In this document: one piece after another, positions 19,409 to 28,815 of the stretch
Position numbering within the stretch: position 1 is the first letter of the stretch
How the letters are laid out: the number at the start of each line of letters is the position of its first letter
Assembly: GCA_029289095.1 (NCBI GenBank)
Contig: JARFUG010000011.1
Span: 26,637-63,402 of the forward strand
Direction of reading: 5' to 3'
Source of the DNA: Desulfuromonadales bacterium
Lineage (GTDB): Bacteria > Desulfobacterota > Desulfuromonadia > Desulfuromonadales > JACZKF01
DNA length: 36,766 nt
Program-made: the position numbers and the translations under genes
The notes under the pieces: model-generated
The model's database searches: none
What the model was told of the DNA's origin: nothing
What the model saw: only the letters and a program-made list of their open reading frames with translations

Positions 19409-20686
19409 GTGATCGCAACCCCCATCCTGACCCAGAGGGAGATCTCCCTCTTCTTTTTTCCGCTGCTGCTCAACGTGCAGTTGATGAGCGTTTCGCACTC
19501 CATCATCAATGCGGCGCTCGCCCGTCAGGACGATTTCATCACAGCTTTGGCCGCCTTCTCGGTGGCGATGGTCCTGCATCTGTTTCTCGCCTCCCCCTCT
19601 TACCAGAACCACACCATCACCATCGCCATGGTGCGGGGGCGCCGCTCGCTGTGGGGGACCGTCGTCTTCGTGCTCCTGGTCGCCTGCGGCGTATCGGCGG
19701 CCCTGGCCGCTGTCGCCTACACCGTCGTCGGCGACCTCATTGTCGAAGGGGTGCTGGGGGTCACGGGAGAAGTCGCCGACGGCGCCCGGGAAGTCCTCGG
19801 CATCCTCGTCTTTCTCCCTTTCTTCACCGGCTTTCGCGGCCTCTTTCAAGGGCTCGTCATGCGAGAGAGGCGAACCGCCCTCGTCTCCTTCGCCACCGGG
19901 GTGCGCATCGCCGCCCTCTTCGCCTTTCTGGCGCTGGGAGTCAACTGGTTCACCGGCCCGGCCCTCGGCGCCTTCGCCCTTCTGGGGTGCGTGGCGACCG
20001 AAACGCTCCTGATGGCCTTTTTCGCAAGCCGCTGCAGCATTCCGCGCGCTTCGGAAGGGGAGAAGGGAACGTGGGAAATCATCCGATTCGCCTGGCCCCT
20101 GGCTTTTTCTTCGTGCATGCAGCAGAGCATCCCCCTCGTCATCAACGCCATCATCAGCCGGCTGCCTGACGGAACTCTCGCCCTGGCTTCCTTCGGCGTC
20201 GTGCGCGGCTTTCTCTTCCTGCTCGCAGGCCCCATGCGCAACCTGCAACAGGCCTATCTCACCCTGGTGCGAAACCGCGCCGACTACGCCGTACTGGTGA
20301 GATTTTTCCGGCGCGTCTCGGCCGGCATGGCGGCGCTGATGGTCCTCATCGCCTATCCCCTGAACGAACAGATTCTCGGCAGGGTCATGGGACTCGACGC
20401 CGAGATGCGCTCCTACATCGCCCTCCCCCTGGTCTTCTGCGCCTTGTTCCCCTTCCTCTACGGCGCGGCGAACCTGCTGCGCGGCTGCTTCACCGGCGAG
20501 CACCTCACCGGCCTCCTCGGCTGGTCCACCGTCTTCAAGCTCGCCTATCTGTTGACCTGCTGGGGATTGCTCCTCCTCTTTCCGCTTCCCGTCCCCGGAA
20601 TCGCCCTGGCCATCTTTCTCCTTCTCTCCAGCGAATTCTGGGAATTCTGGTACCTGCACCGCAAGCGCCGGCGCATCCTGGCCTGA
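19409..20686 (+). CDS. Polytopic membrane protein, MATE/MOP-superfamily-like transporter
   Basis: 425 residues with about 12 hydrophobic segments spread over the whole length (for example VVFVLLVACGVSAALAAVAY, LGILVFLPFFTGFRGLF, AGMAALMVLIAYPL, LTCWGLLLLFPLPVPGIALA). The arrangement of two bundles and motifs such as FPLLLNVQLMSVSHSIINAA and AFSSCMQQSIPLVINAIIS resembles MATE/flippase-type or ANKH-like exporters; no substrate can be inferred. The start is a GTG at 19409 with GGAG 5 nt upstream. The C-terminus is a short basic tail (HRKRRRILA). A MITE-like element is inserted 29 bp after its stop. Confidence 0.75.
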   Translation: MIATPILTQREISLFFFPLLLNVQLMSVSHSIINAALARQDDFITALAAFSVAMVLHLFLASPSYQNHTITIAMVRGRRSLWGTVVFVLLVACGVSAALAAVAYTVVGDLIVEGVLGVTGEVADGAREVLGILVFLPFFTGFRGLFQGLVMRERRTALVSFATGVRIAALFAFLALGVNWFTGPALGAFALLGCVATETLLMAFFASRCSIPRASEGEKGTWEIIRFAWPLAFSSCMQQSIPLVINAIISRLPDGTLALASFGVVRGFLFLLAGPMRNLQQAYLTLVRNRADYAVLVRFFRRVSAGMAALMVLIAYPLNEQILGRVMGLDAEMRSYIALPLVFCALFPFLYGAANLLRGCFTGEHLTGLLGWSTVFKLAYLLTCWGLLLLFPLPVPGIALAIFLLLSSEFWEFWYLHRKRRRILA

Positions 20687-20715
20687 AAAGCCTTCCACCG
20701 CACAGGGTCACGCCC

Positions 20716-20910
20716 GAATGGCGCTCGTTTAAGCCCTTCTTGCTACTGCTATGGAGTAAACTCGGGACTGTCCCCGGCCCCATCGGGGGCTGTCCCAGAT
20801 GTTTACGGGCTATGCAACTGTGGTGGTTCGCGCCGCAAAAGCCAGGGACAGCCCCCTGCGGGGACAGTCCCGGTTTTGCTGACATCCGTTTCCTTAAATT
20901 AGCGCCATTC
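20716..20910 (+). mobile_element. MITE-like element, copy 1 (195 bp, with 11-bp target duplication)
   Basis: The ends are perfect 10-bp inverted repeats, GAATGGCGCT at 20716-20725 and AGCGCCATTC at 20901-20910. The similarity continues inward for about 8 bp with two mismatches. The element is flanked by an exact direct repeat, GGGTCACGCCC, at 20705-20715 and 20911-20921, which looks like a target-site duplication. Inside are two imperfect palindromes built on GGGACTGTCCCC (20764-20796) and GGGACAGCCCCC (20845-20871), themselves in inverted order. It has no transposase gene, so it would need one in trans. A nearly identical copy in opposite orientation is at 26803-26995. Confidence 0.85.
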
Positions 20911-20935
20911 GGGTCACGCCCGCATACTTCCGCAT

Positions 20936-22048
20936 TTATCGCCACACCAATACGAGGTCTCCCTCATCCGTCAGCTTAACGCGGACGCCGAGCCCTTTCC
21001 CTTCGCGGTCGAGGATGGCCTGGAGCCATTTCCTTTCAGATGGAAAGGGCCGCGAGAGCCGCAGCTTTCTCATTGCGGTGGGAACCATCCGAAGGTTTTT
21101 CAGGCGTCCTCCAGGAAGGGTCAGCGTGGGGAAATACATCAGACCCAGATCACCCCTGAAGTCTTCGAATCCGGATATCCCCTCGTAATCGGTCAGCAGA
21201 TCGCCGCAGCCGTAAAGGACGAGCTTCTCCCGGTAAACTTCGATCCCCATCGCGTGATGCGAGGAGTGGCCGTGCACCAGGTCGATCCCGGCTTCATCGA
21301 TCAGCGCCCGGGCGAAAAGACGATGGGACGAAGGGATGCGATATCCCCAGTTCCCCCCCCAGTGGACGGAGGCGACGGCAATGTCCCCCTTTTGCTTGAG
21401 AGCCCACACCGCGTGGCCGATTTCGCGAGCGGTGGCCATAGAGAGGTCAGGGAGAAAGTTCACCCCCGGCCGGTCGGCCTCCGCCCCCCACTCCCTGGGG
21501 ATGCCGCTCGATCCACTTCCGAAGCAGAAGAGAAGAACCCGTCCTCGCCCCGGGATCTCCAGAATGGCGGGAGCTTGCGCCTCGGCCAGATTCCGCCCCG
21601 CACCCGCCGTTGCGATATCGAGACGGCGCAGCGTTTCCCGCGTGTCGAGCAGCCCAGGATAACCCCAGTCGAGAACGTGGTTGTTTGCCAGCGAGCAGGC
21701 GTCGATACCGGCGGCGCTCAGACATCCGGCGTTCTCGGGGCTCATTCGATAGTGGATCATCTTGTCTCGCCACCACTGGTGGCTGCGGGTGACGGCCGTC
21801 TCGAGATTGACGATGCGCAGGTCGGGGCCGATACGCTCCATCTCCTCCAGGGCATCGCCCCAGATGTAATCGAAAGGGACGGGATGCGGAATCGGTCCGT
21901 TCGCCGCCTCGGCGAGTTCCCGGTAGGCTGTGGCGATCTTGACGTGCGGCTCATGCAGATCGGGGTCGCACGGATGTGGCAGAATCTGGTCGATCCCCCG
22001 CCCCGTCATCACATCGCCGCAAAGAAAGAGGGTGGCGCTTTCGTCCAT
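20936..22048 (-). CDS. CapA-family (poly-gamma-glutamate synthesis type) metallophosphatase-like protein
   Basis: 370 residues, no signal peptide. It shows the CapA family motifs in order: LFLCGDVMTGRGIDQIL, DLRIVNLETAVTRS, ACSLANNHVLDWGYPGL, ATAGAGRNLAEA, VHWGGNWGYR, and GIDLVHGHSSHHAMGIEVYR. The fold is of the calcineurin-like type; some members act in capsule synthesis, others have unknown roles. Other capsule genes (capB, capC) are not present, so the role here is open. The start ATG 22048 has only a weak GGAT upstream. The MITE copy 1 ends 25 bp from its stop codon. It is divergent from the GGDEF/EAL gene. Confidence 0.88.
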   Translation of the reverse strand: MDESATLFLCGDVMTGRGIDQILPHPCDPDLHEPHVKIATAYRELAEAANGPIPHPVPFDYIWGDALEEMERIGPDLRIVNLETAVTRSHQWWRDKMIHYRMSPENAGCLSAAGIDACSLANNHVLDWGYPGLLDTRETLRRLDIATAGAGRNLAEAQAPAILEIPGRGRVLLFCFGSGSSGIPREWGAEADRPGVNFLPDLSMATAREIGHAVWALKQKGDIAVASVHWGGNWGYRIPSSHRLFARALIDEAGIDLVHGHSSHHAMGIEVYREKLVLYGCGDLLTDYEGISGFEDFRGDLGLMYFPTLTLPGGRLKNLRMVPTAMRKLRLSRPFPSERKWLQAILDREGKGLGVRVKLTDEGDLVLVWR

Positions 22049-26278: not shown

Positions 26279-26350
26279 TTGAATATTTTTTTCCTGCGTT
26301 GTATTTATTCTCACCCTTCACGGGAAAACATCATTCAGGAGAATCTGCAC

Positions 26351-26674
26351 ATGCCTTCCCCCGAGCGTTTCGAAAACGTCACCGTCGCCTGCAAGGCCAA
26401 CATCTACTTCGACGGAAAAGTTGTCAGCCATGCCGTGACCTTTCCCGACGGCAGCCGCAAGACCCTGGGACTGATCTATCCGGGCGAATACACCTTCAAC
26501 ACCGCTGCTGCCGAGCGCATGGAGATCGTCGCCGGAGCCTGCCGCGCCCGGGTCGCCGGAGAGGACAAGTGGACGGAGTATGCCGCCGGCGCCTTCTTCG
26601 ACGTCCCCGCCAACTCCTCCTTCGACATCGCCGTGGCGGACGGAATCGCCGAGTACGTCTGCTCTTTTGAGTAA
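26351..26674 (+). CDS. ppnP: Pyrimidine/purine nucleoside phosphorylase (DUF1255)
   Basis: A 107-residue small cupin-type enzyme that, in the family, splits nucleosides with phosphate into base and ribose-1-phosphate. Typical segments: ENVTVACKANIYFDGKVVSH, VTFPDGSRKTLGLIYPGEY, AAERMEIVAGACRARV, and GAFFDVPANSSFDIAVADG. The E. coli protein has 94 residues, so this is full length. AGGAGA lies 7-8 nt before ATG 26351. It follows the DUF488 gene by 72 bp on the same strand. Confidence 0.92.
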   Translation: MPSPERFENVTVACKANIYFDGKVVSHAVTFPDGSRKTLGLIYPGEYTFNTAAAERMEIVAGACRARVAGEDKWTEYAAGAFFDVPANSSFDIAVADGIAEYVCSFE

Positions 26675-27098
26675 TTCAGGATTTGGGAGTTGGGAGAGAA
26701 AAGCCCAACGATTCTACCTTCTCCTCGATTATCGACTTTAACTGATCATGTTCGATCCAGGCGGCCGATTCCATCACGGCCGCCATTTCTGTCCTCTGTC
26801 CCGAATGGCGCTAGTTAGTAAACGGATGTCAGCAAAACCGGGACTGTCCCCGCAGGGGGCTGTCCCTGGCTTTTGCGGCGCGAACCACCACAGTTGCATA
26901 GCCCGTAAACATCTGGGACAGCCCCCGATGGGGCCGGGGACAGTCCCGAGTTTACTCCATAGCAGTAGCAAGAAGGGCTTAAACTAGCGCCATTCTCCTC
27001 TGTCCTCTGTCCTCACTTCTCATCCATTCTTGACAGACGGAGAGACGGTGATATGAGAGAGAACCGAAGAGCTCCACCGTTCTCGTGCAGGAGACAAC
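26675..27098. other. Gene-free stretch holding a MITE-like element and simple repeats
   Basis: Between ppnP and the small ORF. It has TTTGGGAGTTGGGAG at 26683-26696 (a family B half-array), TCCTCTGTCC units at 26792-26801 and 26996-27013 flanking the MITE copy, and nothing that looks like a gene or a tRNA. The frames running through the MITE are not real genes. Confidence 0.7.
26803..26995 (-). mobile_element. MITE-like element, copy 2 (193 bp, inverted relative to copy 1)
   Basis: The reverse complement matches copy 1 almost base for base, with the main differences near the ends. Inverted repeats GAATGGCGCT (26803-26812) and AGCGCCATTC (26986-26995) mark the ends. The flanks TCCTCTGTCCC (26792-26802) and TCCTCTGTCCT (26996-27006) match at 10 of 11 bases, consistent with a target duplication, although they lie in a TCCTCTG simple repeat and could match for that reason alone. 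Confidence 0.85.
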
Positions 27099-27242: not shown

Positions 27243-27369
27243 TCGACTTCGCCTCCCGCCGGCTTTACCCCCGCATCCCGCCTTGTGGTTTTCAACCAAT
27301 CGTGCTATTTCTCTAATCTCAGTGTCATTTCAGCGATTTCCCATTCTTCATTCAAGAGACCGGTTTTCG

Positions 27370-28815
27370 ATGGACGACAGAAAAAACCTGCTGCGCCGCA
27401 TTCCAGCCGTGGACCGCGTCCTCAACGAGCCGGCCCTGAGCCGCCTGAGCGCGTCGTGCCCCCGCATTCTCCTTCTGGAGAGCGCCCAGGAGACGGTCGC
27501 CGAACTGCGGCGCGAGATCCTGGAGGCGCCCCAGAGCTCCCCGGACCTCTCTCCTGCGGCGGTTGCACAAAGGGCAGCCCGCCGGGCCGAGCGCAAGCTC
27601 TCTCCGTCGCTCCAGCCCGTCATCAACGCCACCGGCACCCTGCTGCACACCAATCTCGGGCGCGCCCCCTTGAGCGAGAGCGCCCTTTTGGCCATGCAGG
27701 AGGTCGCCCGCGGCTACTCCAACCTCGAGTTCGATCTCGACTCCGGCGAACGCGGACACCGCTACGCCCACGTGGAGGAGCTCCTGTGCCGCCTGGCGGG
27801 GGCCGAGGCGGCCACGGTGGTGAACAACAACGCCGGGGCGGTCCTTCTCGCCCTCACGGCCCTTGCCAAGGGGAAGGAGGCGATCGTCTCGCGGGGGGAA
27901 CTGGTGGAGATCGGCGGGGCGTTTCGCGTCCCGGACGTGATGGCCGCCGGGGGAGTGACGCTGCGGGAGGTGGGGACGACGAACAAGACGCACCTGAAGG
28001 ACTACCGCGAGGCGATCGGCGATGCGACCGCCCTCTTTTTGAAGGTGCACACGAGCAACTACCGCATCGTCGGCTTCACCGCCTCCGTATCGGCACAAGA
28101 TCTCGTCGCCCTCGCCCGGGAGCGGAGTCTCCTAGTCATGGAAGACCTGGGGAGCGGGATGCTCCTCGACCTTTCCCCGTACGGCATTCCCCGGGAGCCG
28201 ACGGTGCGCGAGGCGGTTGGGGCGGGGATCGACATCGTCACCTTCAGCGGCGACAAGCTCCTCGGCGGACCGCAGGCGGGGGTCATCCTCGGACGGCGCG
28301 AAGCGGTTGAAAAAATCCGCCGTCACCCTATGGCACGGGCGATGCGCATCGACAAGCTCACCCTGGCCGCCCTGGAGGCGACGCTGCGCCACTACCTTGA
28401 TCCGCAGGAGGCCCTCAGGGAGATCCCGGTGCTGCGCATGCTCGCCGCCTCTGCCGAAGAGATCCGGCGGCGCTGCACGCGCCTGAAGCGCAGACTCTCG
28501 GCACTGGCCGAACACGCCGCCGTCGAAATCGTCGCCGAACCGTCGCAGGTCGGCGGAGGGGCTCTGCCGACGACCGAGCTCCCCGGCTTCGCCCTTGCCG
28601 TCACCCCCAGGAAACTCAGCGCCCAGGCCCTGGCCGACCGCCTCAGGCACGGTCGCCCCCCGGTGGTCGGACGCATCCAGGAGGAGCGCCTCCTTCTTAA
28701 TCTGCGCACCGTGGCCAGGGAAGAAGAGAACGAACTCCTTCGGGCCCTGGATACGGTACTCCGGAACACTGACGATCAACCGGTCGGGACTTTAAACCGA
28801 TTTCAACACGGATGA
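27370..28815 (+). CDS. selA: L-seryl-tRNA(Sec) selenium transferase
   Basis: A 481-residue PLP enzyme that turns Ser-tRNA-Sec into Sec-tRNA-Sec with selenophosphate, in the cytoplasm. The N-terminal helical domain ([20 protein letters not shown]) is present. The pyridoxal lysine is K296 in [17 protein letters not shown] (E. coli K295). [20 protein letters not shown] and [20 protein letters not shown] are family signatures. Length fits the usual ~465. The ATG at 27370 is used: earlier codons do not look like SelA. It is the first gene of the selA-selB-selD run. Its stop codon lies inside an inverted repeat array. Confidence 0.96.

Follow-up and report, generated by a model that had tools for sequence, protein, structure and literature searches.

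An element of 195 bp lies between two convergent genes in the DNA analysed here (the window, a stretch of 36,766 nucleotides from a Desulfuromonadales bacterium), and its combination of inverted ends, flanking direct repeats and internal palindromes raises the question of which type of transposase moves it. A first-pass annotation described the element as MITE-like with an exact 11-bp target duplication, and took the duplication and the palindromes as clues to two different transposase types, an IS4-group enzyme and a REP-type tyrosine transposase. The element, its parts and its neighbours are listed in Table 1.

Table 1. Features of the two MITE copies in the window and the genes flanking copy 1.
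Feature	Position	Strand or orientation	Remarks
MITE copy 1	20716..20910	.	195 bp; 9 full copies in genome
Left 11-bp target duplication, GGGTCACGCCC	20705..20715	.	matches target preference
Right 11-bp target duplication, GGGTCACGCCC	20911..20921	.	exact copy of the left one
Left terminal inverted repeat, GAATGGCGCTCGTTTAAG	20716..20733	+	family consensus GAATGGCGCTAGTTTAAG
Right terminal inverted repeat, GAATGGCGCTAATTTAAG	20893..20910	-	sequence as read on the - strand
Internal palindrome 1, GGGACTGTCCC	20764..20774	.	
Internal palindrome 2, GGGGGCTGTCCC	20785..20796	.	
Internal palindrome 3, GGGACAGCCCCC	20845..20856	.	inverted partner of palindrome 2
Internal palindrome 4, GGGGACAGTCCC	20860..20871	.	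inverted partner of palindrome 1
Left neighbour: MatE/ANKH-type transporter gene	19409..20686	+	outside element; ends 18 bp before left duplication
Right neighbour: PGA_cap (capsule synthesis protein) gene	20936..22048	-	outside element; convergent; stop 15 bp from right duplication
MITE copy 2	26803..26995	opposite to copy 1	193 bp; overlooked in first-pass annotation
Copy 2 left target duplication, TCCTCTGTCCC	26792..26802	.	
Copy 2 right target duplication, TCCTCTGTCCT	26996..27006	.	10/11 identical to the left one

The element is a multicopy MITE with constant ends

The ends of copy 1 are perfect inverted repeats over 10 bp (GAATGGCGCT at 20716-20725 and AGCGCCATTC at 20901-20910), or imperfect ones over 18 bp (16/18 positions). 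Taken alone, this copy is ambiguous as to its boundary. Its duplication begins with GGG and finishes with CCC, and the CCC/GGG at the duplication edges also permit an inverted repeat of 13 bp and a duplication of 5 bp. This second arrangement was ruled out by other copies, which share the boundary GAATGG and have 11-bp duplications such as AACTCTGACCT, ACATGTAATGT and CGAGCTGTCCC, among others. Because these genome copies agree, the element boundary was placed at GAATGG, with a duplication of 11 bp. The terminal 10-mer, sought with at most one mismatch, occurs four times in the window, each time exactly. Since these four occurrences pair as the ends of two copies, and nine full copies exist in the genome, the 10-mers are not attributable to chance. 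The second of the two copies has a Ppnp gene (26279-26674) on one side and selA (27283-28815) on the other.

The source genome (3.5 Mb) is assembled in 154 contigs, several of which end inside the element. About a dozen copies are present, of which nine are full and 97-99.5% identical; the others are partial and lie at the ends of contigs, and one such piece bridges C62 and C90. Duplications of 11 bp are present at 9 of the 10 assessable sites, seven of them exact and two (on C134, and at the second window copy on C89) with one mismatch. The duplicated sequences are all different: GGGTCACGCCC, AACTCTGACCT, GGGACATTGCC/T, CGAGCTGTCCC, AGGTCAGTCGC, GGGGCAGGGGA, ACATGTAATGT, TCCTCTGTCCC/T and GGATGTGGCCC. 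Multiple copies, differing 11-bp duplications and ends that are constant in position establish that the element is mobile. It is short and non-coding, has terminal inverted repeats and target duplications, and is dispersed in multiple copies; it is thus a non-autonomous transposon of the MITE type, as the first-pass annotation had proposed, and it has no transposase gene of its own. The same annotation had named copies without duplications or with variable ends as findings that would speak against it. One full copy, on C18, indeed lacks a duplication; the end positions are invariant. In two relatives, G093 and G070, several times more MITE copies are found than in the window's genome (82 and 61 matching pieces, respectively, both strands counted).

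Insertion sequences of the IS4 family share the ends of the MITE

MITEs that depend on a partner insertion sequence for their movement are well documented. A search for the ends in 58 genomes of the same order revealed pairs in relatives that are about 1555-1557 bp apart. The complete insertion sequences of these relatives measure 1555-1588 bp, carry the same 18-bp end, GAATGGCGCTAGTTTAAG, and are mostly flanked by 11-12-bp duplications; seven copies reside in one genome (G051). They encode a 489-amino acid transposase that matches Pfam DDE_Tnp_1 (E 3.4e-26) and the NCBIfam IS4 family model (E 2.6e-61, over the cut-off). Residues Y342-R345-E349-K356 form the Y(2)R(3)E(6)K (YREK) signature, and the catalytic residues are likely D156, D232 and E349, the two aspartates being assigned by spacing. 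Among solved structures none matches the transposase by sequence, and its best IS-named plasmid relative is ISAcma16-like (33% identity). Among the 63 element pairs for which a duplication was identified, allowing one mismatch, its length is 11 bp in 58, 12 bp in three and 10 bp in two.

In the IS231 subgroup, the target is GGGN5CCC. This subgroup was considered and rejected, as the ends lack CAT and only 1 of 37 target sites fits that pattern. Subgroup IS4 of the IS4 family has the end signature -AATR--------WTW---- and 10-13-bp target duplications (De Palmenaer et al. 2008, PMC2266710), and both the consensus end GAATGGCGCTAGTTTAAG and the duplication length fit this subgroup when compared with Table 1 of that study. 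Further likenesses are autonomous relatives of 1400-1650 bp, a DDE transposase with the YREK signature, and a marked target preference in some members (PMC2266710). Unlike these insertion sequences, the window element lacks a transposase gene, and it has little in common with them beyond the 18-bp ends; therefore, simple internal deletion from a known insertion sequence does not account for it.

The IS4-group mobiliser suggested by the first-pass annotation is supported by these complete insertion sequences, with their identical 18-bp ends, IS4 transposase and 11-12-bp duplications. Judging from the relatives, it is very likely that the MITE is moved in trans by a transposase of the IS4 family, subgroup IS4, that prefers GGGACAG-type targets. 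Such a transposase would bind the 18-bp ends, excise the element and join it to the target with an 11-bp stagger, which would give rise to the duplication.

The 18-bp end is found as well in Desulfobulbaceae, Nitrospirae and further named assemblies, among them many metagenome bins. With regard to phage carriage, an exact copy of the end is present at 970-987 of a viral contig (IMGVR_UViG_3300042878_001900), the single such contig. At three loci (L119, L121 and L240), the flanks of complete insertion sequences are inverted rather than direct copies (GGGACACTCCC and GGGAGTGTCCC on opposite sides), which may reflect recombination between two copies.

In the window's genome, no match to DDE_Tnp_1 (PF01609) was found, whereas members are present in 9 of 14 control genomes. 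Likewise, a tblastn search of this genome with the transposase gave no match, and one search found relatives in 7 of 12 genomes. Because no such transposase is detectable, the MITE copies look orphaned and their mobiliser lost from this genome, or else the insertion sequence falls in an assembly gap. Counting against our assignment, a partner transposase in the same genome is usual for an IS4-type MITE, although it is not required of an orphan.

The internal palindromes are full versions of the preferred target

The first-pass annotation noted two internal palindromes in inverted order. The inverted arms are present, and the palindromes number four, two per arm. A single strand of copy 1 is predicted to fold into one long hairpin that is far more stable than those of shuffled sequences (z -6.7 as DNA and -6.8 as RNA). 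Comparison of the MITE with Rfam gave no match to a known structured RNA. Palindrome doublets of the form GGGACTGTCCCC-GCAT-GGGGGCTGTCCC are also present without MITE ends in three relatives (G031, G013 and G057), and the MITE may have arisen through the capture of two such doublets between a pair of IS4-type ends. In one of these relatives (G013, locus L093), GGGGACAGTCCC-type palindromes recur within a long open frame (228-2957), where they are translated as LSPALSGTVPGF / GQSPVKLGTVPDDQR linkers.

When oriented, 37 target sites give the pattern G-GGGACAG-NNNN. The heptamer GGGACAG is found at one edge, with at least 5 of 7 positions matching, in 50 of 58 eleven-bp sites compared with 2.8% of 11-mers drawn at random from those loci. 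Orienting a site raises its match count in every case, and the random set was scored identically. An independent matrix, derived from 30 sites in other genomes, places the insertion sites of the window's genome far above background (p = 1.7e-5), and the window site GGGTCACGCCC ranks in the top 0.025% of background 11-mers. The only site of this genome that falls wholly outside the preference is ACATGTAATGT. In a preferred target, the 11 bp that become duplicated have GGGACAG (or CTGTCCC) at one edge, and this one half of the palindrome suffices. The internal palindromes are full versions of this target. What had appeared to be two clues to different transposase types is a single clue, the palindrome matching the IS4-type target preference.

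Nested insertions in a relative (G070) bear on this point. There, three 173-bp elements with the same ends lie within palindromes of larger MITE copies (L316, L317 and L318), flanked by exact 11-bp duplications GGGACAGTCCC, GGGACTGTCCC and GGGGCTGTCCC, respectively. Because all three hit palindromes, the interior of the MITE serves as a natural target in that relative; nested insertions were not seen in the window's genome. With four palindromes in two inverted arms, every new copy would add preferred targets for its own mobiliser.

Alternatively, a REP-associated tyrosine (Y1) transposase might mobilise the element as a REPIN-type unit, its inverted ends and direct repeats being incidental. 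The two inverted palindromic arms around a spacer, folding as one hairpin, do resemble the REP doublets (REPINs) associated with RAYTs (Bertels and Rainey 2011, PMC3116915), four Y1_Tnp genes are present in the window's genome, and the related doublets stand alone in the three relatives named above. However, unlike REPINs, the window element has IS4-type ends and target duplications: the latter occur at 9 of 10 sites, and the constant 18-bp ends are common to IS4-type insertion sequences. Moreover, 22 of the 23 GGGACWGTCCC palindromes in the genome lie inside MITE copies, none was found around the four Y1 (RAYT-like) genes, and no other association with a RAYT emerged. REPs are marked by a GTAG or CGTC tag beside the palindrome, at one of its ends (PMC3733652), and neither tag is adjacent to the internal palindromes. 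We consider mobilisation by a Y1 transposase to be highly improbable, and the corresponding suggestion of the first-pass annotation is unsupported. The palindrome that flanks one of these Y1 genes is a different one, GGGACACTCCC. Seven of the 11 such sites in the genome are on one contig (G000:C112:27858-37064) around a Y1 transposase gene. They mostly form inverted pairs, the arrangement that a RAYT and palindromes of its own would be expected to show.

The palindromes vary less than the transposon ends

Among 34 full copies from relatives, the mean minor-allele count per site is 0.31 in the palindromes, 2.0 in the ends and 5.6 in the central spacer. The palindromes are less variable than both the ends (p = 1.1e-4) and the spacer (p = 1.9e-8), although these values are a guide, given that copies were chosen by query similarity, sites are non-independent and ancestry is shared. 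The result persists when G and C sites alone are used. It is clearest in G093, where 44 of 45 palindrome sites are invariant compared with 26 of 36 sites in the ends, and weaker in G070 (p = 0.04 versus the ends, not significant versus the spacer). No compensatory changes were seen in 40 predicted pairs, which gives no covariation support for an RNA; thus, it is sequence that is conserved rather than pairing through covariation. Selection acting on a host function, selection acting on use as a target, and repair between the arms would each suffice as an explanation.

Positions 48-166 of the element are invariant in the window's genome, where every variable site is within 47 bp of an end; the collapse of short reads could contribute to this distribution. 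It is conceivable, if somewhat doubtful, that the invariant interior in this genome is an assembly artefact in which short reads collapse the middle of the repeat. The 154 contigs, several ending in the element, and the confinement of variable sites to at most 47 bp from an end are consistent with such an artefact, but palindrome variation is similarly low in G070 and G093, whose assemblies have 2 and 6 contigs, respectively. A rather unlikely explanation is that the palindromes serve the host as a transcription terminator, mRNA stabiliser or protein-binding site, and that copies are retained for this reason. Variation below that of the ends or spacer suggests constraint after insertion, copy 1 is flanked by convergent genes, and in two genera (G041, L109 and G032, L090) a copy with decayed ends is found in the same place with its interior kept, immediately before the start codon for MKVIFVGAGPGDPDL, in a gene that we take to be cobM-like. 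Yet none of the 40 predicted pairs shows a compensatory change, copy 2 sits upstream of selA, the terminator-like match is not above chance, and 17 bases of one arm are lost in G032. Furthermore, a host role would bear on what copies do once inserted and is compatible with a mobile origin.

The palindromes might also stay perfect without selection if the near-identical arms corrected each other's mismatches by template switching or gene conversion, which we likewise hold to be rather unlikely. This process predicts zero compensatory changes and near-perfect arms, as seen; the four palindromes are near-identical, and L090 shows two collapsed into one. The ends, which are also an inverted pair, vary more, but this is a weak point against arm correction since they are farther apart. 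More speculative, and in our estimation unlikely, is the proposal that the MITE keeps target palindromes as a landing pad. New insertions would then be diverted from genes to copies already present and to REP-like spacer DNA, permitting low-cost growth of the family, and selection for that, or for a role of the hairpin in the host, would conserve the palindromes more than the ends.

Comparison with other elements and implications

A MITE called Chunjie is known from Geobacter uraniireducens, which presumably belongs to the same wider group as the window's organism. Chunjie copies are 178-235 bp long and mostly intergenic, with direct repeats and many partial copies (Chen et al. 2008, as described in PMC10969869). 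The size, intergenic setting, direct repeats and partial copies are similar to those reported here, a likeness at the level of description. ISRm22, an IS4-family insertion sequence of Sinorhizobium meliloti, inserts into REP palindromes (Tobes and Pareja 2006, PMC1525189). Like the mobiliser proposed here, it has an IS4-family transposase that selects palindromic extragenic targets, and some of its copies lack perfect duplications (PMC1525189). In contrast, ISRm22 is autonomous and has 6-bp repeats, whereas here the duplications are 11 bp, half a palindrome is enough, and the passenger carries the target internally.

An IS4-type MITE is itself ordinary; what is unusual is that it carries and conserves the preferred targets of its mobiliser. 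No description of a passenger that carries and conserves such targets was found in the literature searched, which was limited in coverage. A MITE family that many genomes of this order contain can now be assigned to a concrete transposase, whose end and target sequences lend themselves to testing. The conservation of the palindromes beyond that of the transposon ends calls for an explanation, and is directly testable. Finally, a passenger that receives insertions at a target it carries itself points to a possible mechanism of self-limitation.
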